Notes under the pieces: generated by a model
Told to the model about the DNA's origin: nothing
The model's database searches: none
The model's input: only the letters and a program-made list of their open reading frames with translations
Translations under genes and position numbers: made by a program
Shown here: positions 2 to 52,962 of the stretch, one piece after another
Layout of the letters: each line of letters begins with the position of its first letter
Numbering within the stretch: position 1 is the first letter of the stretch
Origin: Fabrea salina
Lineage: Eukaryota; Ciliophora; Heterotrichea; Heterotrichida; Fabreidae
Length of the DNA stretch: 64,000 nucleotides
Assembly (NCBI GenBank): GCA_022984795.1
Contig: JALIHJ010000050.1
Span: forward strand, 124,001-188,000
Reading direction: 5' to 3'

Positions 2-622
2 TCTTACGAAACAACCAGGGAAAAGCTTTACTTCAGCTTGCAAGAACTCAAAAACAAACTACCCCAAGTAATGATTTCAGGAATTCCAAGTATAGAAAGA
101 GCTGTGATCAACATGGACAAGTCAGGCACTAAATACAGCTTACTGGTTGAAGGCTACGGAATTGACGAAGTTATGCGCACTACTGGAGTCGACCACAGAG
201 CTTGTGTCACCAACCACGTTATGGAGACTGAAAGCATTTTGGGCATAGAAGCAGCAAGGAACACCATTATCAACGAAATAAAGTACACACTGAAAGAACA
301 CGGAATCTATGTAGACCCCAGACACATTTCTTTGGTAGCAGACGTGATGACCTTTAAAGGACAGGTCCTAGGAATCACTAGGTTCGGAGTTAGTAAAATG
401 CGCGAGTCCACTCTTATGCTTGCTTCCTTCGAAAAGACCACTGACCACTTGTTTGACTCTGCTTACAGAGGCACTGTGGACCCTATACAAGGAGTGTCTG
501 AAAGAATCATTATGGGCAAACCTGTTAGTTTGGGTTCGGGGTTCTGCTCACTGCTGTACATGCAAGGCCAGGAAAAGTCGAGAGTGCCTGCTTGGCGTAA
601 AAAACTTTTGTTATCTTCTTAG
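2..622 (+). CDS. POLR3A: RNA polymerase III largest subunit, C-terminal part (5' truncated by window)
   Basis: This is the last 206 residues of the RPC1 subunit of RNA polymerase III, which makes tRNA and 5S RNA in the nucleus. The frame is open from base 2 with no start codon, so the gene begins upstream. The segment carries the conserved C-terminal block of the family: LGIEAARNTIINEI, then a DPRHISL-type stretch, GITRFGVSKMRES, LASFEKTTDHLFDSA and GVSERIIMG. These match Pol III RPC1 better than RPB1, as there is no CTD heptad tail and the protein stops soon after the GSGFCSLLY segment, as RPC1 does. It ends in TAG. The next gene starts 6 bp later on the same strand. Confidence 0.93.
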   Translation, partial: SYETTREKLYFSLQELKNKLPQVMISGIPSIERAVINMDKSGTKYSLLVEGYGIDEVMRTTGVDHRACVTNHVMETESILGIEAARNTIINEIKYTLKEHGIYVDPRHISLVADVMTFKGQVLGITRFGVSKMRESTLMLASFEKTTDHLFDSAYRGTVDPIQGVSERIIMGKPVSLGSGFCSLLYMQGQEKSRVPAWRKKLLLSS

Positions 623-39664: not shown

Positions 39665-41308
39665 ATGTTTTCAGTGCAAGTAGGCGTCAGAATTAGGCCT
39701 CCTCTGGAAAATGAAATTTCTTCAGAAACAACCATCAAGGCTACCAAGAACACCGTCCAAATAATAGACACCCAAAAAACCCTTGAATCCAGTTTCCACA
39801 GAGTTTTTGACGAGTCCTCCTCTCAAGAGTCTGTGTACTCTTTTTTAAAGCAGTCAATTGGGAGGCTAGGCGAAGGCTTCAGTTTGACTGTGCTTGCATA
39901 CGGACAAACTGGCTCAGGAAAGACCTACACGATGTTTGGTCCGCAGTGGAACAGACAAGTTCCTGACACGTCTTTGTTTGGGGTAGTTCCTAGGTGTGTT
40001 GAAGAGGTTTTTTCAGTTTTACCGGACTTCACTATAAGTTGCAGTGTGCTCCAGCTGTACAACGAAAACATCTACGACTTGCTAGAAGACCCCAAAAGAG
40101 AAAGACCTCTCAAGCTCCGCAATGACAAAGATGGAGTCTATGTGGAAGGAGCCTCTGAGTATGTAGTTAGCAGTGCCAAAGACTGCATTGACCTAGTCCA
40201 CAGAGGAGAGTCCAACAGAGCTGTTAGGAACACTCGGTTTAACCCAGTTAGTTCGCGCTCTCACTTAGTTTTCAGCATAGCGTTTGAGTCAGACTTAGTG
40301 AACCAAAAAGGTAACTTGATTAAAGGCAAAGTCCACCTTTGTGACTTGGCTGGCAGTGAAAGACTTGATAAAACAGGGCCAATGGGGACAGGCCACATTT
40401 TAGAGTGCAACAGTATAAACTTGTCCTTAACCACTCTGGGTTTGATAATCAAGAACCTAGCTTCTAAGAAAAGACAACACATTCCTTACAGGAACTCTAA
40501 ACTCACACACTTGCTAAGGGACCACCTAGGGATGTTTACACCTACTTACTTACTAGCAACAGTGTCCCCGAGTGCCAGTAATATTTATGAAACTATTAAA
40601 ACGGTTAAGTTTGCTAGTTTGGCAAAAAACATAGCAGTCCAACCCAGAACTACCCAAATATCTGCTAACGACCCCCACATGATAGAGAAACTCCAAAAAG
40701 AAGTTAAGTACCTAAGGGAACTTCTGTACATGCGGAATTCAGGCATGGGGACTTACCAAGAACTCCAACAAAAACTGCTGAACTTGCAAGAAGAAAACCA
40801 AAAACTCAAACAGGCTTGGAAACTCTCAGAACTCGAAAGCCTTAAAAAACAAAACAAACAACTCAGAATTGAACTCCAAAAACTCCAAATTCCTAGAGTT
40901 CCCGAAACTCCCGAAACTCCCGAAACAACTCCAAAAGTCCAAGTAAGAATCCGCACTAGAAAAAACACCCTGGAGAAAAGGTCAGTCTCAGTGTTTAAAC
41001 CAAAAGAAGAAGTTCAGTCCCAAAAACTCAGAACTCTCGAACAACTAGAAAACTTCAAAACACAAAAAGTCAAACAAGCCATTAAAAACTGGCAAAAAGA
41101 AAAAAAGAAAGAAAAGTTACTTATGCGCAAAACCCAAATGATCCAGTTCAGACAGTTTTCTGAATTCAGTGCTAAGTGCAAAGACGAACTTCACAGAGCC
41201 AAGTCAAGTCTCATCAAAGCAGAACAAGCCAAAACCAGAGCTATCCTTGACCTCAAAAAACTAAGAGACAAAATAGGCCCAGTTAAAAGAAACCTAACTC
41301 CTATTTAA
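39665..41308 (+). CDS. Kinesin with N-terminal motor, short tail
   Basis: This 547-aa protein has a motor at residues ~1-335: P-loop GQTGSGKTYTM near 80, switch I NPVSSRSH, switch II DLAGSER and the neck-side ATVSPSASNIYET block. A coiled coil (~345-405), a basic linker with a PET tandem repeat and a second Lys-rich coiled coil (~450-535) follow. I cannot place it in a named kinesin class. An axonemal or cortical role is possible but unproven. Its TAA interlocks with the stop of the nucleotide-sugar transporter in a 4-bp TTAA. Confidence 0.92.
   Translation: MFSVQVGVRIRPPLENEISSETTIKATKNTVQIIDTQKTLESSFHRVFDESSSQESVYSFLKQSIGRLGEGFSLTVLAYGQTGSGKTYTMFGPQWNRQVPDTSLFGVVPRCVEEVFSVLPDFTISCSVLQLYNENIYDLLEDPKRERPLKLRNDKDGVYVEGASEYVVSSAKDCIDLVHRGESNRAVRNTRFNPVSSRSHLVFSIAFESDLVNQKGNLIKGKVHLCDLAGSERLDKTGPMGTGHILECNSINLSLTTLGLIIKNLASKKRQHIPYRNSKLTHLLRDHLGMFTPTYLLATVSPSASNIYETIKTVKFASLAKNIAVQPRTTQISANDPHMIEKLQKEVKYLRELLYMRNSGMGTYQELQQKLLNLQEENQKLKQAWKLSELESLKKQNKQLRIELQKLQIPRVPETPETPETTPKVQVRIRTRKNTLEKRSVSVFKPKEEVQSQKLRTLEQLENFKTQKVKQAIKNWQKEKKKEKLLMRKTQMIQFRQFSEFSAKCKDELHRAKSSLIKAEQAKTRAILDLKKLRDKIGPVKRNLTPI
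40901..40927 (+). repeat. Tandem repeat, three 9-bp units
   Basis: CCCGAAACT is repeated twice, then CCCGAAACA, coding for Pro-Glu-Thr three times in the kinesin linker. In-frame 9-bp expansion by slippage is the likely origin. Confidence 0.8.
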
Positions 41309-42360
41309 AATATTAAATTCTTTTCTTGTATTTGGAATCTTTCAAATATCCGATTTCTGTAGTAAAGGTAAATCGAAATCATCACAAGCACCAAAGCACA
41401 AATGAACTCAAAAGTGCAGTTGAAGTCGAAGTACAACACACTGATTATGGTAGTCACTAACATAGCTACTGTAAGCGAGATCACATACACTATGTTGTCC
41501 AAAAATTTAAAAATGAACGACAAACTCACTCCCATTGCCGACTGCGAAACTAACACCTGCACTACGTATATGTCGAACCCAGCAAAAAACCCGTACTCGT
41601 AGTCTGCTTCGTCGTAAGTCAGCACAAGGTAAATGCCGTTCACTAAGACTCCGTAGGTGTAAAGCACTAAGTTTTGGTAAAAGATACTGAGTTCTTGGGT
41701 TTTTTTGTAGTTGAGCTCAATGTAAATGCTAGAAGAAGTGCTGCAGATGCACATCATCACTATAAGAACCAAACCCAGCATGTCCGAAGGCACTGTTTCG
41801 GAAGAGTTTACTTCAGGACTTGCCAGAGTTGCTCCAATAGTTAGGAGAACTAGTGACAGCCACTGAAGTTCTGTTTGTTTCCTCTGCATTATGAACCTGT
41901 AAAGCAGCCCTGCAGTTAAAATTCTGATATTTCCGAAAACGTGGAAAAGTGCTGGGTTGATGTAACTCATTCCGTAGTAAAGCAAAGTGTTAGAAGCCCC
42001 GTATAAAACAGAGGGCACTAAGAAGTGGAGTGACTGTTTAAAAGGCAAGTTGACTAAAGCACTTCTTTTGGCAGGTTCAGTGTTTTTGTAATGCAAGAAC
42101 AACATCACAGCTGAAAACACCAACTTAACGATTTCCACTAGCAACACCATAAAGGTTTTGTTGTAGGTGTAAGACCCATCTGCTTGCTTTGAAGCAGCAA
42201 TGGCTAAGGGCTGCCAACTCTTGATTCCTATTGCCAAAGCTATCATCAAGGCGTAGTTAGCCCAGTCTTTTTGGGAGCTTTTAGAGTTTTCTTTGATTTC
42301 TGACTCAGTTGTGTCCAGAGACGTTTGGGTGTTCTTTAGTCTTTGCCTCACTTCAGCCAT
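41305..42360 (-). CDS. Nucleotide-sugar transporter, SLC35A-type
   Basis: This 351-aa protein has ten hydrophobic spans and an N-terminal ~35-residue cytosolic tail. Motifs fit the SLC35A group (UDP-Gal, UDP-GlcNAc and CMP-sialic acid carriers): ALFHVFGNIRILTAGLLYRF and the following ELQWLSLVLLTIGATLASP. It probably brings a UDP-sugar into the Golgi for glycosylation; the exact sugar cannot be told. Its start is only 9 bp from the UFM1 start codon on the other strand. Confidence 0.88.
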   Translation of the reverse strand: MAEVRQRLKNTQTSLDTTESEIKENSKSSQKDWANYALMIALAIGIKSWQPLAIAASKQADGSYTYNKTFMVLLVEIVKLVFSAVMLFLHYKNTEPAKRSALVNLPFKQSLHFLVPSVLYGASNTLLYYGMSYINPALFHVFGNIRILTAGLLYRFIMQRKQTELQWLSLVLLTIGATLASPEVNSSETVPSDMLGLVLIVMMCICSTSSSIYIELNYKKTQELSIFYQNLVLYTYGVLVNGIYLVLTYDEADYEYGFFAGFDIYVVQVLVSQSAMGVSLSFIFKFLDNIVYVISLTVAMLVTTIISVLYFDFNCTFEFICALVLVMISIYLYYRNRIFERFQIQEKNLIF

Positions 42361-42369
42361 AATATATAA

Positions 42370-42645
42370 ATGTAATCCACACTTAGGTCAGGCGAGAAAA
42401 TCCAGTTCAGGATCGTAAACGCTTCAGACTCCAGACAGCCCTACAGAGTAGTTGCTGTTCCTGAACAAGCGCCTTTCACAGCTGTGATCAAGTTTGCAGC
42501 CGACGAGTTCCGGGTTCCAGCTTCTACTTCTGCTATCATCACTAACTCAGGAGTAGGCATTAACCCCAACCAAACTGCAGGAACTATTTTCCTTAAACAC
42601 GGAGCTGAACTCAAACTGATTCCCAGAGATAGAGTGGGGCACTAA
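42370..42645 (+). CDS. UFM1: Ubiquitin-fold modifier 1, start codon split by an intron
   Basis: Exons 42370-42371 and 42387-42645 give 86 aa. The first two bases of the ATG (AT) lie before the 15-nt intron and the G lies after it. The protein begins [10 protein letters not shown] and carries the family core [42 protein letters not shown]. It ends in Gly85-His86, so removal of one residue by a UfSP protease would expose the conjugating glycine. UFM1 marks ribosomal protein uL24 at the ER for ribosome quality control. Standard ORF finding misses this gene because unspliced RNA reads ATG-TAA. Confidence 0.93.
42372..42386 (+). other. 15-nt intron inside the UFM1 start codon
   Basis: Sequence GTAATCCACACTTAG, flanked by AT and G. 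Unspliced RNA reads ATG TAA, a start followed by a stop, so translation depends on splicing. A at position 10. Confidence 0.88.
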
Positions 42646-43478
42646 CTATTATTTATTTTTGACTCGCACACCCAAGTTTCTTTCCTCATGGTTTCGTTGA
42701 TTAGGCTTTTGAGGACTTTGTTTTCTTCTAGGAGTTTCTGGACCCTTTCGGCGTACTTGTGGATTAACTCGGACTTTTGGGTTTTAAGTGCTTCGCACTC
42801 CTGAACTAGTGACTCGTGCAAGTTAACTGAGTTCTTTTTTTCCCGGGACACAGAAACTATTATGTTTTTGGCTTCTAAAACTGCGTTTTGGAGGTTCAGA
42901 GTGTCTTTGGTTTGTTTGTAGCCGGTCTTCACGGCTTCTTGTATTGCGAAGTTAAGTCACTCTTTTAGTTTGTGCATTTCTTGTTTTAAGGAGTCTACTT
43001 CTTGTTTGAGTTGTTGGGCTTCTTGTTTGGAGGTTTCTAGTTGGGTTTGGCAAGTTTTTAAGTTTTCGTAAAAGGTTGTTTCGTGTTTAGTCAGGGTTTC
43101 TTGTTTTAGGTTCTGGAGTTCTTCTTTAAGGCAATTTAGGTCTTGTTGGGTTTTCAGTGTTTGGTCTGCTTGGATGCTCACTTTGGTTTTGGAAGTGTGG
43201 CTAGCATTTAGAATAGCCGTTTTAAGTAGTTCTAAGGCTTCTTGGAGTTCTTTGTCCGACTTAGGAGTGTTTGGGCATGACTCTACCTTTTCAGAAAAGT
43301 CTTTGAAAAAGCAGCTGTCTACCCAATTACTGAGTTCTTTTATGTAAGTTACTAGGGACTCGCTCTTTTGGCTCCTCGAAGTTTTCTGAATTGAGCTAGA
43401 ACTCCTTTTCATGGTGGATCGGAGTTTGCCTGTTTCTTGCAGAATCTTGTTTTTTAGTAAGTTTAATTTAGGGTTCAT
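42642..43478 (-). CDS. Coiled-coil protein with internal in-frame TGA
   Basis: The frame runs from ATG (43478) for 173 codons to a TGA at 42957-42959. It then continues in the same frame for 104 codons to a TAG. The downstream part has no usable ATG until near its end and keeps the same Lys/Glu coiled-coil character, so both halves belong together. If TGA is read as an amino acid, the protein is 278 aa: a Ser-rich N-terminus, then long coiled coils. No 15-nt GT-AG intron covers the TGA. Its TAG interlocks with the UFM1 TAA in CTAA. The family is unknown. Confidence 0.7.
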
Positions 43479-52248: not shown

Positions 52249-52962
52249 TTACTCTAGAGTGTCTGGGTTTTTCTGTGCTTGGAACTCTTGTAGTTTGTTT
52301 TTGAGTTTGGTTTCTCGTTCCTGAGTGTGTGTTACCCTGAGTTTAACCTGGGTTTGCCAGAGTCTTCTTTTGGTAGAAGAGTTTTCTTTCCTGGGCTTGT
52401 AAAATATTTCAGGTTGGGTCCTAGTTGCACCTTACTCAGTGAGAATGGAGTCTTTGAAGGTTTCTTGGGTTTTTTGGTGCTTGCAGATCTGTTTAGGGCT
52501 TACCTTTACTTTGAGTTCAGTTTCTTGTATTTGTTCTTCTAGTTGGTTCTTTTTTTGTGTTTCTGCTTTGATGGACTCTTGGAGTTCTTGGACTTGTTGG
52601 CTTTTCAGTGTTTGGGCTTCAAGTCTACATTGCTGGGCTACCTTTTGGTGGGTCCGGGATTGCATTTCTAGAGAAGAGTCTTTTTTAAGCTCTTCTTGGG
52701 CAGTTTGCAAAAAGGATATCATGCCCCGCACTACATTCCGGGACCTTAGTTGTTCGGACCTAGGAGTGCGTTGTTTAGGTGGCCTTTCTGTGTGGTACTT
52801 TTCCCTGGGAGACCTTGACCTCTTGGGGGATGTTTTTGCTACAATTATTGAGTTGGTTTTTTCTTCTTGTTTGGAGAGTTGGTAACTCAGACTTTTCAGT
52901 TTCTTGGAACTTCTGTTGCGTTTCTTTACCAAAGTTTTGAGTTGTTCTTCTGGGTTTTCCAT
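52249..52962 (-). CDS. Coiled-coil protein, two exons
   Basis: Exons 52436-52962 and 52249-52420 join over a 15-nt intron to give 232 aa. The intron fits the window consensus, and splicing adds 56 residues after what would otherwise be a stop. The N-terminus (~1-80) is Lys/Arg/Ser-rich with an SPKRSRSPREK run. Residues ~85-175 and the C-terminal ~40 are coiled coil. No family is recognised. Its start codon lies 5 bp from that of TSEN34, the shortest divergent gap in the window. Confidence 0.78.
52421..52435 (-). other. 15-nt spliceosomal intron
   Basis: Reads GTAAGGTGCAACTAG on the minus strand, phase 2. Retention gives GAG TAA. A at position 10. Confidence 0.9.

Follow-up and report, generated by a model that had tools for sequence, protein, structure and literature searches.

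A putative 15-nt intron within the start codon of UFM1 in the heterotrich ciliate Fabrea salina

The start codon of UFM1 in the heterotrich ciliate Fabrea salina is confirmed, on the evidence of the genome sequence, to be interrupted by a putative 15-nt intron. Very probably this is a chance-placed intron whose splicing would create the productive AUG and whose retention would leave the RNA a dead end. The gene lies in a window of 64 kb, the whole stretch of DNA analysed here (C49:124001-188000), and the genome searched comprised 18.33 Mb in 103 contigs. At window positions 42370-42387 of the plus strand, AT (A at 42370, T at 42371) is followed by the 15-mer GTAATCCACACTTAG and then by G (42387). 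The features of the locus, in window coordinates, are the following.

41305-42360, minus strand: divergent neighbour, an ORF of 351 aa read as a nucleotide-sugar transporter and starting at 42360 (Pfam and ORF reading)
42361-42369, no strand: gap of 9 bases, AATATATAA, separating the UFM1 start codon (plus strand) from that of the transporter (minus strand) (direct reading)
42370-42371, plus strand: coding part of UFM1 exon 1, the AT of the start codon (direct reading)
42370-42375, plus strand: ATGTAA, a start-stop reading confined to unspliced RNA (direct reading)
42372-42386, plus strand: putative intron of 15 nt, GTAATCCACACTTAG, interrupting codon 1 in phase 2; its donor is GTAA, its acceptor TAG, and A10 the inferred branch base (matrix score 13.7; simulation and reversed controls)
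42387-42645, plus strand: UFM1 exon 2, with the G completing ATG, codons 2-86 and the stop TAA at 42643-42645 (Pfam, PDB and genome search)

Direct reading of these positions agrees with the earlier note, which had proposed that AT precedes and G follows an intron at 42372-42386. The note had further claimed that spliced RNA begins with ATG and encodes a complete UFM1, and the translation (86 aa, MSGEKIQF...RDRVGH), together with the Pfam and PDB matches described below, concurs. The unspliced frame, said there to read ATG TAA, indeed translates as M, stop, STLRSGEK..., in frame with UFM1; the 86-aa protein contains no internal Met, the split Met being the sole one, and the putative intron sits inside the start codon with no other in-frame start available. 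The statement that the gene is invisible to plain ORF calling holds for ATG-based callers, but not for reading from stop to stop, where 89 codons are open.

With 9 bases separating the transporter start from the UFM1 AUG, the first exon would be at most 11 nt long, if the two transcripts do not overlap. The start codons of another pair of divergent ORFs in the window (between 52962 and 52968) are 5 bases apart, and the two divergent gaps, of 9 (42361-42369) and 5 bases, are very short shared promoter space. Note also that a coiled-coil ORF on the minus strand contains an in-frame TGA (window 42957-42959), past which the coding signal runs 104 codons further. In the sample, 6 coding ORFs end in TGA and continuation past TGA is seen in this one case, which is either a rare reading of TGA, an error or a broken gene.

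The 86-aa product matches the full Pfam Ufm1 family profile (126 bits, E 5.4e-37, profile positions 1-75 of 75), with a ubiquitin fold over the whole profile, an alignment that runs through RDRVG, and the C-terminal VG placed after RDR. If a UFSP-type peptidase removes His86 from the terminal RDRVGH, Gly85 would be exposed. A PDB search matched 14 sequences (best E 3.8e-36), with alignments extending from query residues 2-6 to residues 80-86, those of the UFM1 chains beginning at residues 2-4 and reaching the end, and the second-best match, ZK652.3, spans residues 2-86, the final VGH included. Because these alignments begin at query residues 2-6, homology itself places the start of UFM1 at the split ATG. 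Protein search of the Fabrea genome gave a single UFM1 match, and one match each was obtained for the conjugation partners UFC1 (E 8.2e-74), Peptidase_C78 (E 7.1e-68) and E3_UFM1_ligase (UFL1; E 3.5e-76), UBA5 and DDRGK1 lying outside the search. No UFM1 relatives were confirmed in the viral and prokaryote collections (viral_contigs and genome_contigs).

Introns of this genome were inferred from broken coding frames that are restored by cutting out GT...AG segments, with lengths of 11-39 nt scanned. The inferred introns peak at 15 nt, with 24 candidates, every other length in this range yielding between 1 and 12; 4 of the 24 were pattern-selected hits, 7 more lay in pattern-selected loci and 13 came from an unselected 244 kb. 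A scoring matrix was trained on 19 of these candidates, from which the 4 pattern-selected hits and an anomalous overlapping site had been removed. GTAA, A10 and A14G15 are present in all 19 training introns, and the UFM1 15-mer, which is outside the training set, has every invariant base (GTAA, A10, AG) and thereby the length, donor, A10 and acceptor of a heterotrich-type 15-nt intron. It departs from the consensus at positions 5, 6, 8 and 9, and its score of 13.7 is on the low side of the training values (11.9-21.0), with 2 of the 19 training introns scoring lower. At this score or above, 29 GTAA..AG 15-mers occur per 488,000 strand-bases of the sample, some of them training introns, and the background amounts to 7 in 2,000,000 simulated Markov-3 bases (1.7 expected per 488,000) and to 1 in the reversed sample. 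With all invariant bases present and a score above background, the proposal that a consensus 15-nt intron interrupts UFM1 is upheld at the level of sequence.

About 95% of heterotrich introns are reported to be 15 bp long (PMC11441545), and Blepharisma is described as having tiny introns, 15 and 16 bp in length (PMC9942806). The UFM1 intron shares the 15-nt length with these tiny introns; it differs from them in its start-codon position, which the available excerpts of the two papers do not mention. For Stentor and Fabrea, the branch-point adenine of introns is reported to lie close to the 3' end (PMC13344042). Elsewhere in the window, three further intron-like 15-mers are found on the minus strand at 52503, 52435 and 52335 (scores 15.4, 11.9 and 13.3), which probably belong to one gene with several introns.

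Genome-wide, the pattern ATGTAAN8TAGG, in which the intron falls between AT and G (AT/G below), gave 47 matches versus 6 for the reversed pattern; the set of 42 that was examined comprised 30 loci, 11 short stretches and UFM1 itself, the other 5 being dropped for a poor intron match. With CAG, AAG or GAG acceptors, 38 AT/G matches were obtained versus 18 for the reversed pattern. Among the 13 of these 38 non-TAG matches that were examined, start-split readings were found for a kinase gene on contig C35 and for a weak candidate, L073. A 14-nt version of the AT/G pattern gave 14 matches versus 3 in the control, and the A/TG pattern 99 versus 9 in the control. The one A/TG match that was looked at, in the window (127-144, minus strand, score 15.8), was rejected: splicing leaves 33 codons before a stop, and the reading seems to run antisense to another gene. 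The 55 AT/G contexts divide into 19 ATG codons flanked by open frame on either side (the kinase L022 among them), 7 start-split candidates, 1 early intron with an upstream ATG, 16 contexts in another frame and 12 weak introns; start codons account for 106 of the 1,107 ATG codons in ORFs of at least 250 aa. The weak candidate L073 (C32:134371-134388), possibly an AT/G split start, reads MLEPLTSKAKKRRIIRPFTSAKNLHSKR after splicing, with 28 codons seen and an intron score of 11.5.

All four members of the AMPK/SNF1-like kinase subfamily in the genome carry an AT/G intron at the N-terminal ATG, at the following locus and contig positions.

L021, 1501-1518 (C28:230736-230753): kinase split start
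L008, 1501-1518 (C9:296102-296119): kinase split start
L061, 161-178 (C35:161920-161937): kinase split start
L022, 1501-1518 (C29:59923-59940): probable kinase split start

L021, the one paralog searched against PDB, has AMPK alpha-1 and alpha-2 as its best matches (E 8.5e-97, query residues 16-335), and it shows the kinase domain and following UBA-like region of an AMPK/SNF1 catalytic subunit. The three paralogs are 71, 75 and 75% identical to it, versus 49-51% for the next kinases. L008, L021 and L022 came from the matches with a TAG acceptor. In L008 and L021, long ORFs run from the split ATG, preceded by an in-frame stop without any intervening ATG, and in the C35 kinase (L061) the AT/G intron has a CAG acceptor and an in-frame TAA stands directly upstream. 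Three of the four kinases are without an alternative in-frame ATG between the last stop and the kinase domain; L022 has one 8 codons upstream of its split ATG. The four introns score 14.7, 16.0, 12.9 and 10.4, the last value, that of L022, lying below the training minimum, and this score together with the upstream ATG rules out L022 as a certain split start. Divergent ORFs are located 89 and 118 bases upstream of two of the kinases and 42 bases upstream of the C35 gene.

We infer that the AT/G intron of the four kinase paralogs was inherited from one ancestral kinase gene, and that the split start of UFM1 arose in a separate event. L056, L063 and L067 have an internal AT/G intron common to related proteins, so that retention of the intron among the kinase paralogs is not unusual by itself. 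L008 also contains, at codons 85-89, a 5-residue insertion (VIPKQ) that is missing in the paralogs and is encoded by GTAATTCCCAAGCAG (score 13.1). This segment is best read as a putative second intron, in phase 0 and without a stop, that would be translated if retained.

How many split starts should be expected was estimated from the 27 introns found per 197,863 coding bases of the sample and from about 13,900 ORFs of at least 100 aa, the latter number obtained by scaling. At uniform intron density, about 1.9 AT/G start introns would be expected genome-wide, a rough figure in which ORFs are equated with genes and weak introns are missed. The firm split starts observed are those of 4 genes (UFM1 and three kinases), corresponding to 2 independent origins; adding the weak candidates L003, L016 and L073 raises the number of origins to at most 5. 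The 4 firm genes exceed the mean of 1.9, and any excess at start codons is at most mild; a stronger-than-chance number of split starts is unsupported when origins are compared with expectation. Split starts look like an ordinary consequence of where tiny introns fall, and the UFM1 intron would then be a chance-placed member of the tiny-intron population.

At UFM1, the spliceosome would remove 42372-42386 and join AT to G, forming the only AUG able to start the protein. Were the intron retained, the G of its donor would make an AUG at the same spot, with UAA next, resulting in a start-stop dead end and no UFM1. Splicing is probably efficient and constitutive, constitutive removal being the simplest reading, and retained RNA would simply be unproductive. 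The earlier note had gone further and described splicing as a strict on/off gate for translation. The part of this claim that stands is that unspliced RNA cannot yield UFM1; a designed switch does not follow from it, since ATG TAA comes with the intron consensus. A phase-2 GTAA intron puts TAA in frame and its donor G completes ATG, so that the start-stop arises automatically and is no sign of design. The gate role that splicing may have at UFM1 is unproven.

A regulated splicing switch, in which the spliced fraction would be varied to turn UFM1 on or off and ATG TAA would trap or destabilise the RNA, appears unlikely. It would draw on the inability of the retained AUGUAA form to make UFM1, on the same anatomy in another stress-linked family, the AMPK/SNF1-like kinases, and on the Arabidopsis NIP5;1 gene, where AUGUAA in the 5' leader leads to ribosome stalling and mRNA decay (PMC11915504). 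As in UFM1, the start codon in NIP5;1 is followed at once by UAA; the NIP5;1 element stands in the mRNA leader, whereas that of UFM1 is a sequence feature limited to unspliced RNA. However, AUG UAA is inevitable for any GTAA intron that separates T from G, there are about as many cases as uniform placement would give (1.9 expected), and the early next in-frame Met of two of the kinases (codon 22 in L008 and codon 7 in L022, compared with codon 100 in L021) means that their retained form would not be strictly off. A broader version, in which start-codon introns would constitute a shared control layer, is decidedly unlikely: intron retention would silence UFM1 and the AMPK/SNF1-like kinases, AUG-UAA would act as a ribosome trap, and stress-altered splicing would release these genes together.

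It is highly improbable that UFM1 starts at an upstream exon or via a longer intron, with the 15-mer not used as modelled. Alternative models were enumerated for GT-AG introns of 11-399 nt, with the acceptor end at 42371-42419 and an ATG after 42000, and four of them join an ATG to the UFM1 frame, one alone having 15 nt. Among the other three, a 39-nt intron removes 8 residues, and those of 134 and 158 nt do reach an ATG, located within the antisense neighbour gene at its 5' end. However, 134 and 158 nt are far from the 15-nt peak, both models begin within the coding region of the neighbour, and under these models the protein would either gain 17 residues or have part of its conserved N-terminus exchanged; moreover, the 150 bases ahead of the split contain no ATG in either frame. 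Least probable of all is that there is no intron and that UFM1 is made by non-AUG initiation downstream of TAA or by TAA readthrough, for although the frame is open from TAA onward and the length of the 15-mer is a multiple of three, a match to the matrix as good as that of the 15-mer is expected 1.7 times in 488,000 bases, and TAA acts as a real stop rather than a sense codon, closing 88 of the 106 long ORFs of the sample. When kinase-domain matches were read through in six frames, stops were met in 7 of 148, all of them TAA or TAG, as would be expected of GTAA...TAG introns and unlike a reassigned code.

The chance-placed start-codon intron that we favour for UFM1 belongs to a rare kind already on record. 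Nielsen and Wernersson (2006; PMC1626468) described position-1 introns in phase 1 or 2, which disrupt the start codon, as relatively rare, in line with the rarity that had been claimed for split start codons at the outset. The cases in the available part of that study resemble UFM1 in having an intron at codon 1 and a short conserved protein; their abundant class is in phase 0, right after ATG, whereas the UFM1 intron is in phase 2, between T and G, and 15 nt long. In Yarrowia lipolytica, 42 introns form a class similar to the UFM1 case, their 5' splice site lying behind the first, second or third base of the start codon (PMC13309789); unlike UFM1, the median intron there measures 196 nt, and splicing is highly efficient according to RNA data. 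A 2025 preprint describes an AUG engineered to be split at its U. A literature search of limited depth turned up no description of an intron-split start codon for UFM1, for SNF1 or in a heterotrich. What is new here is that all four AMPK/SNF1-like kinases carry an AT/G intron.

An AUG would be found at one and the same place in spliced and unspliced UFM1 RNA, since in the latter the role of the exon G falls to the donor G. ATG-dependent gene callers miss UFM1 entirely and would truncate kinases such as L021, in which the next Met is codon 100. Stop-less introns like GTAATTCCCAAGCAG of L008 are visible by paralog comparison alone, and annotation would call them coding. The occurrence of the AT/G intron in 4 of 4 AMPK/SNF1-like paralogs indicates that a split start can outlast gene duplications while the intron sequence itself diverges.
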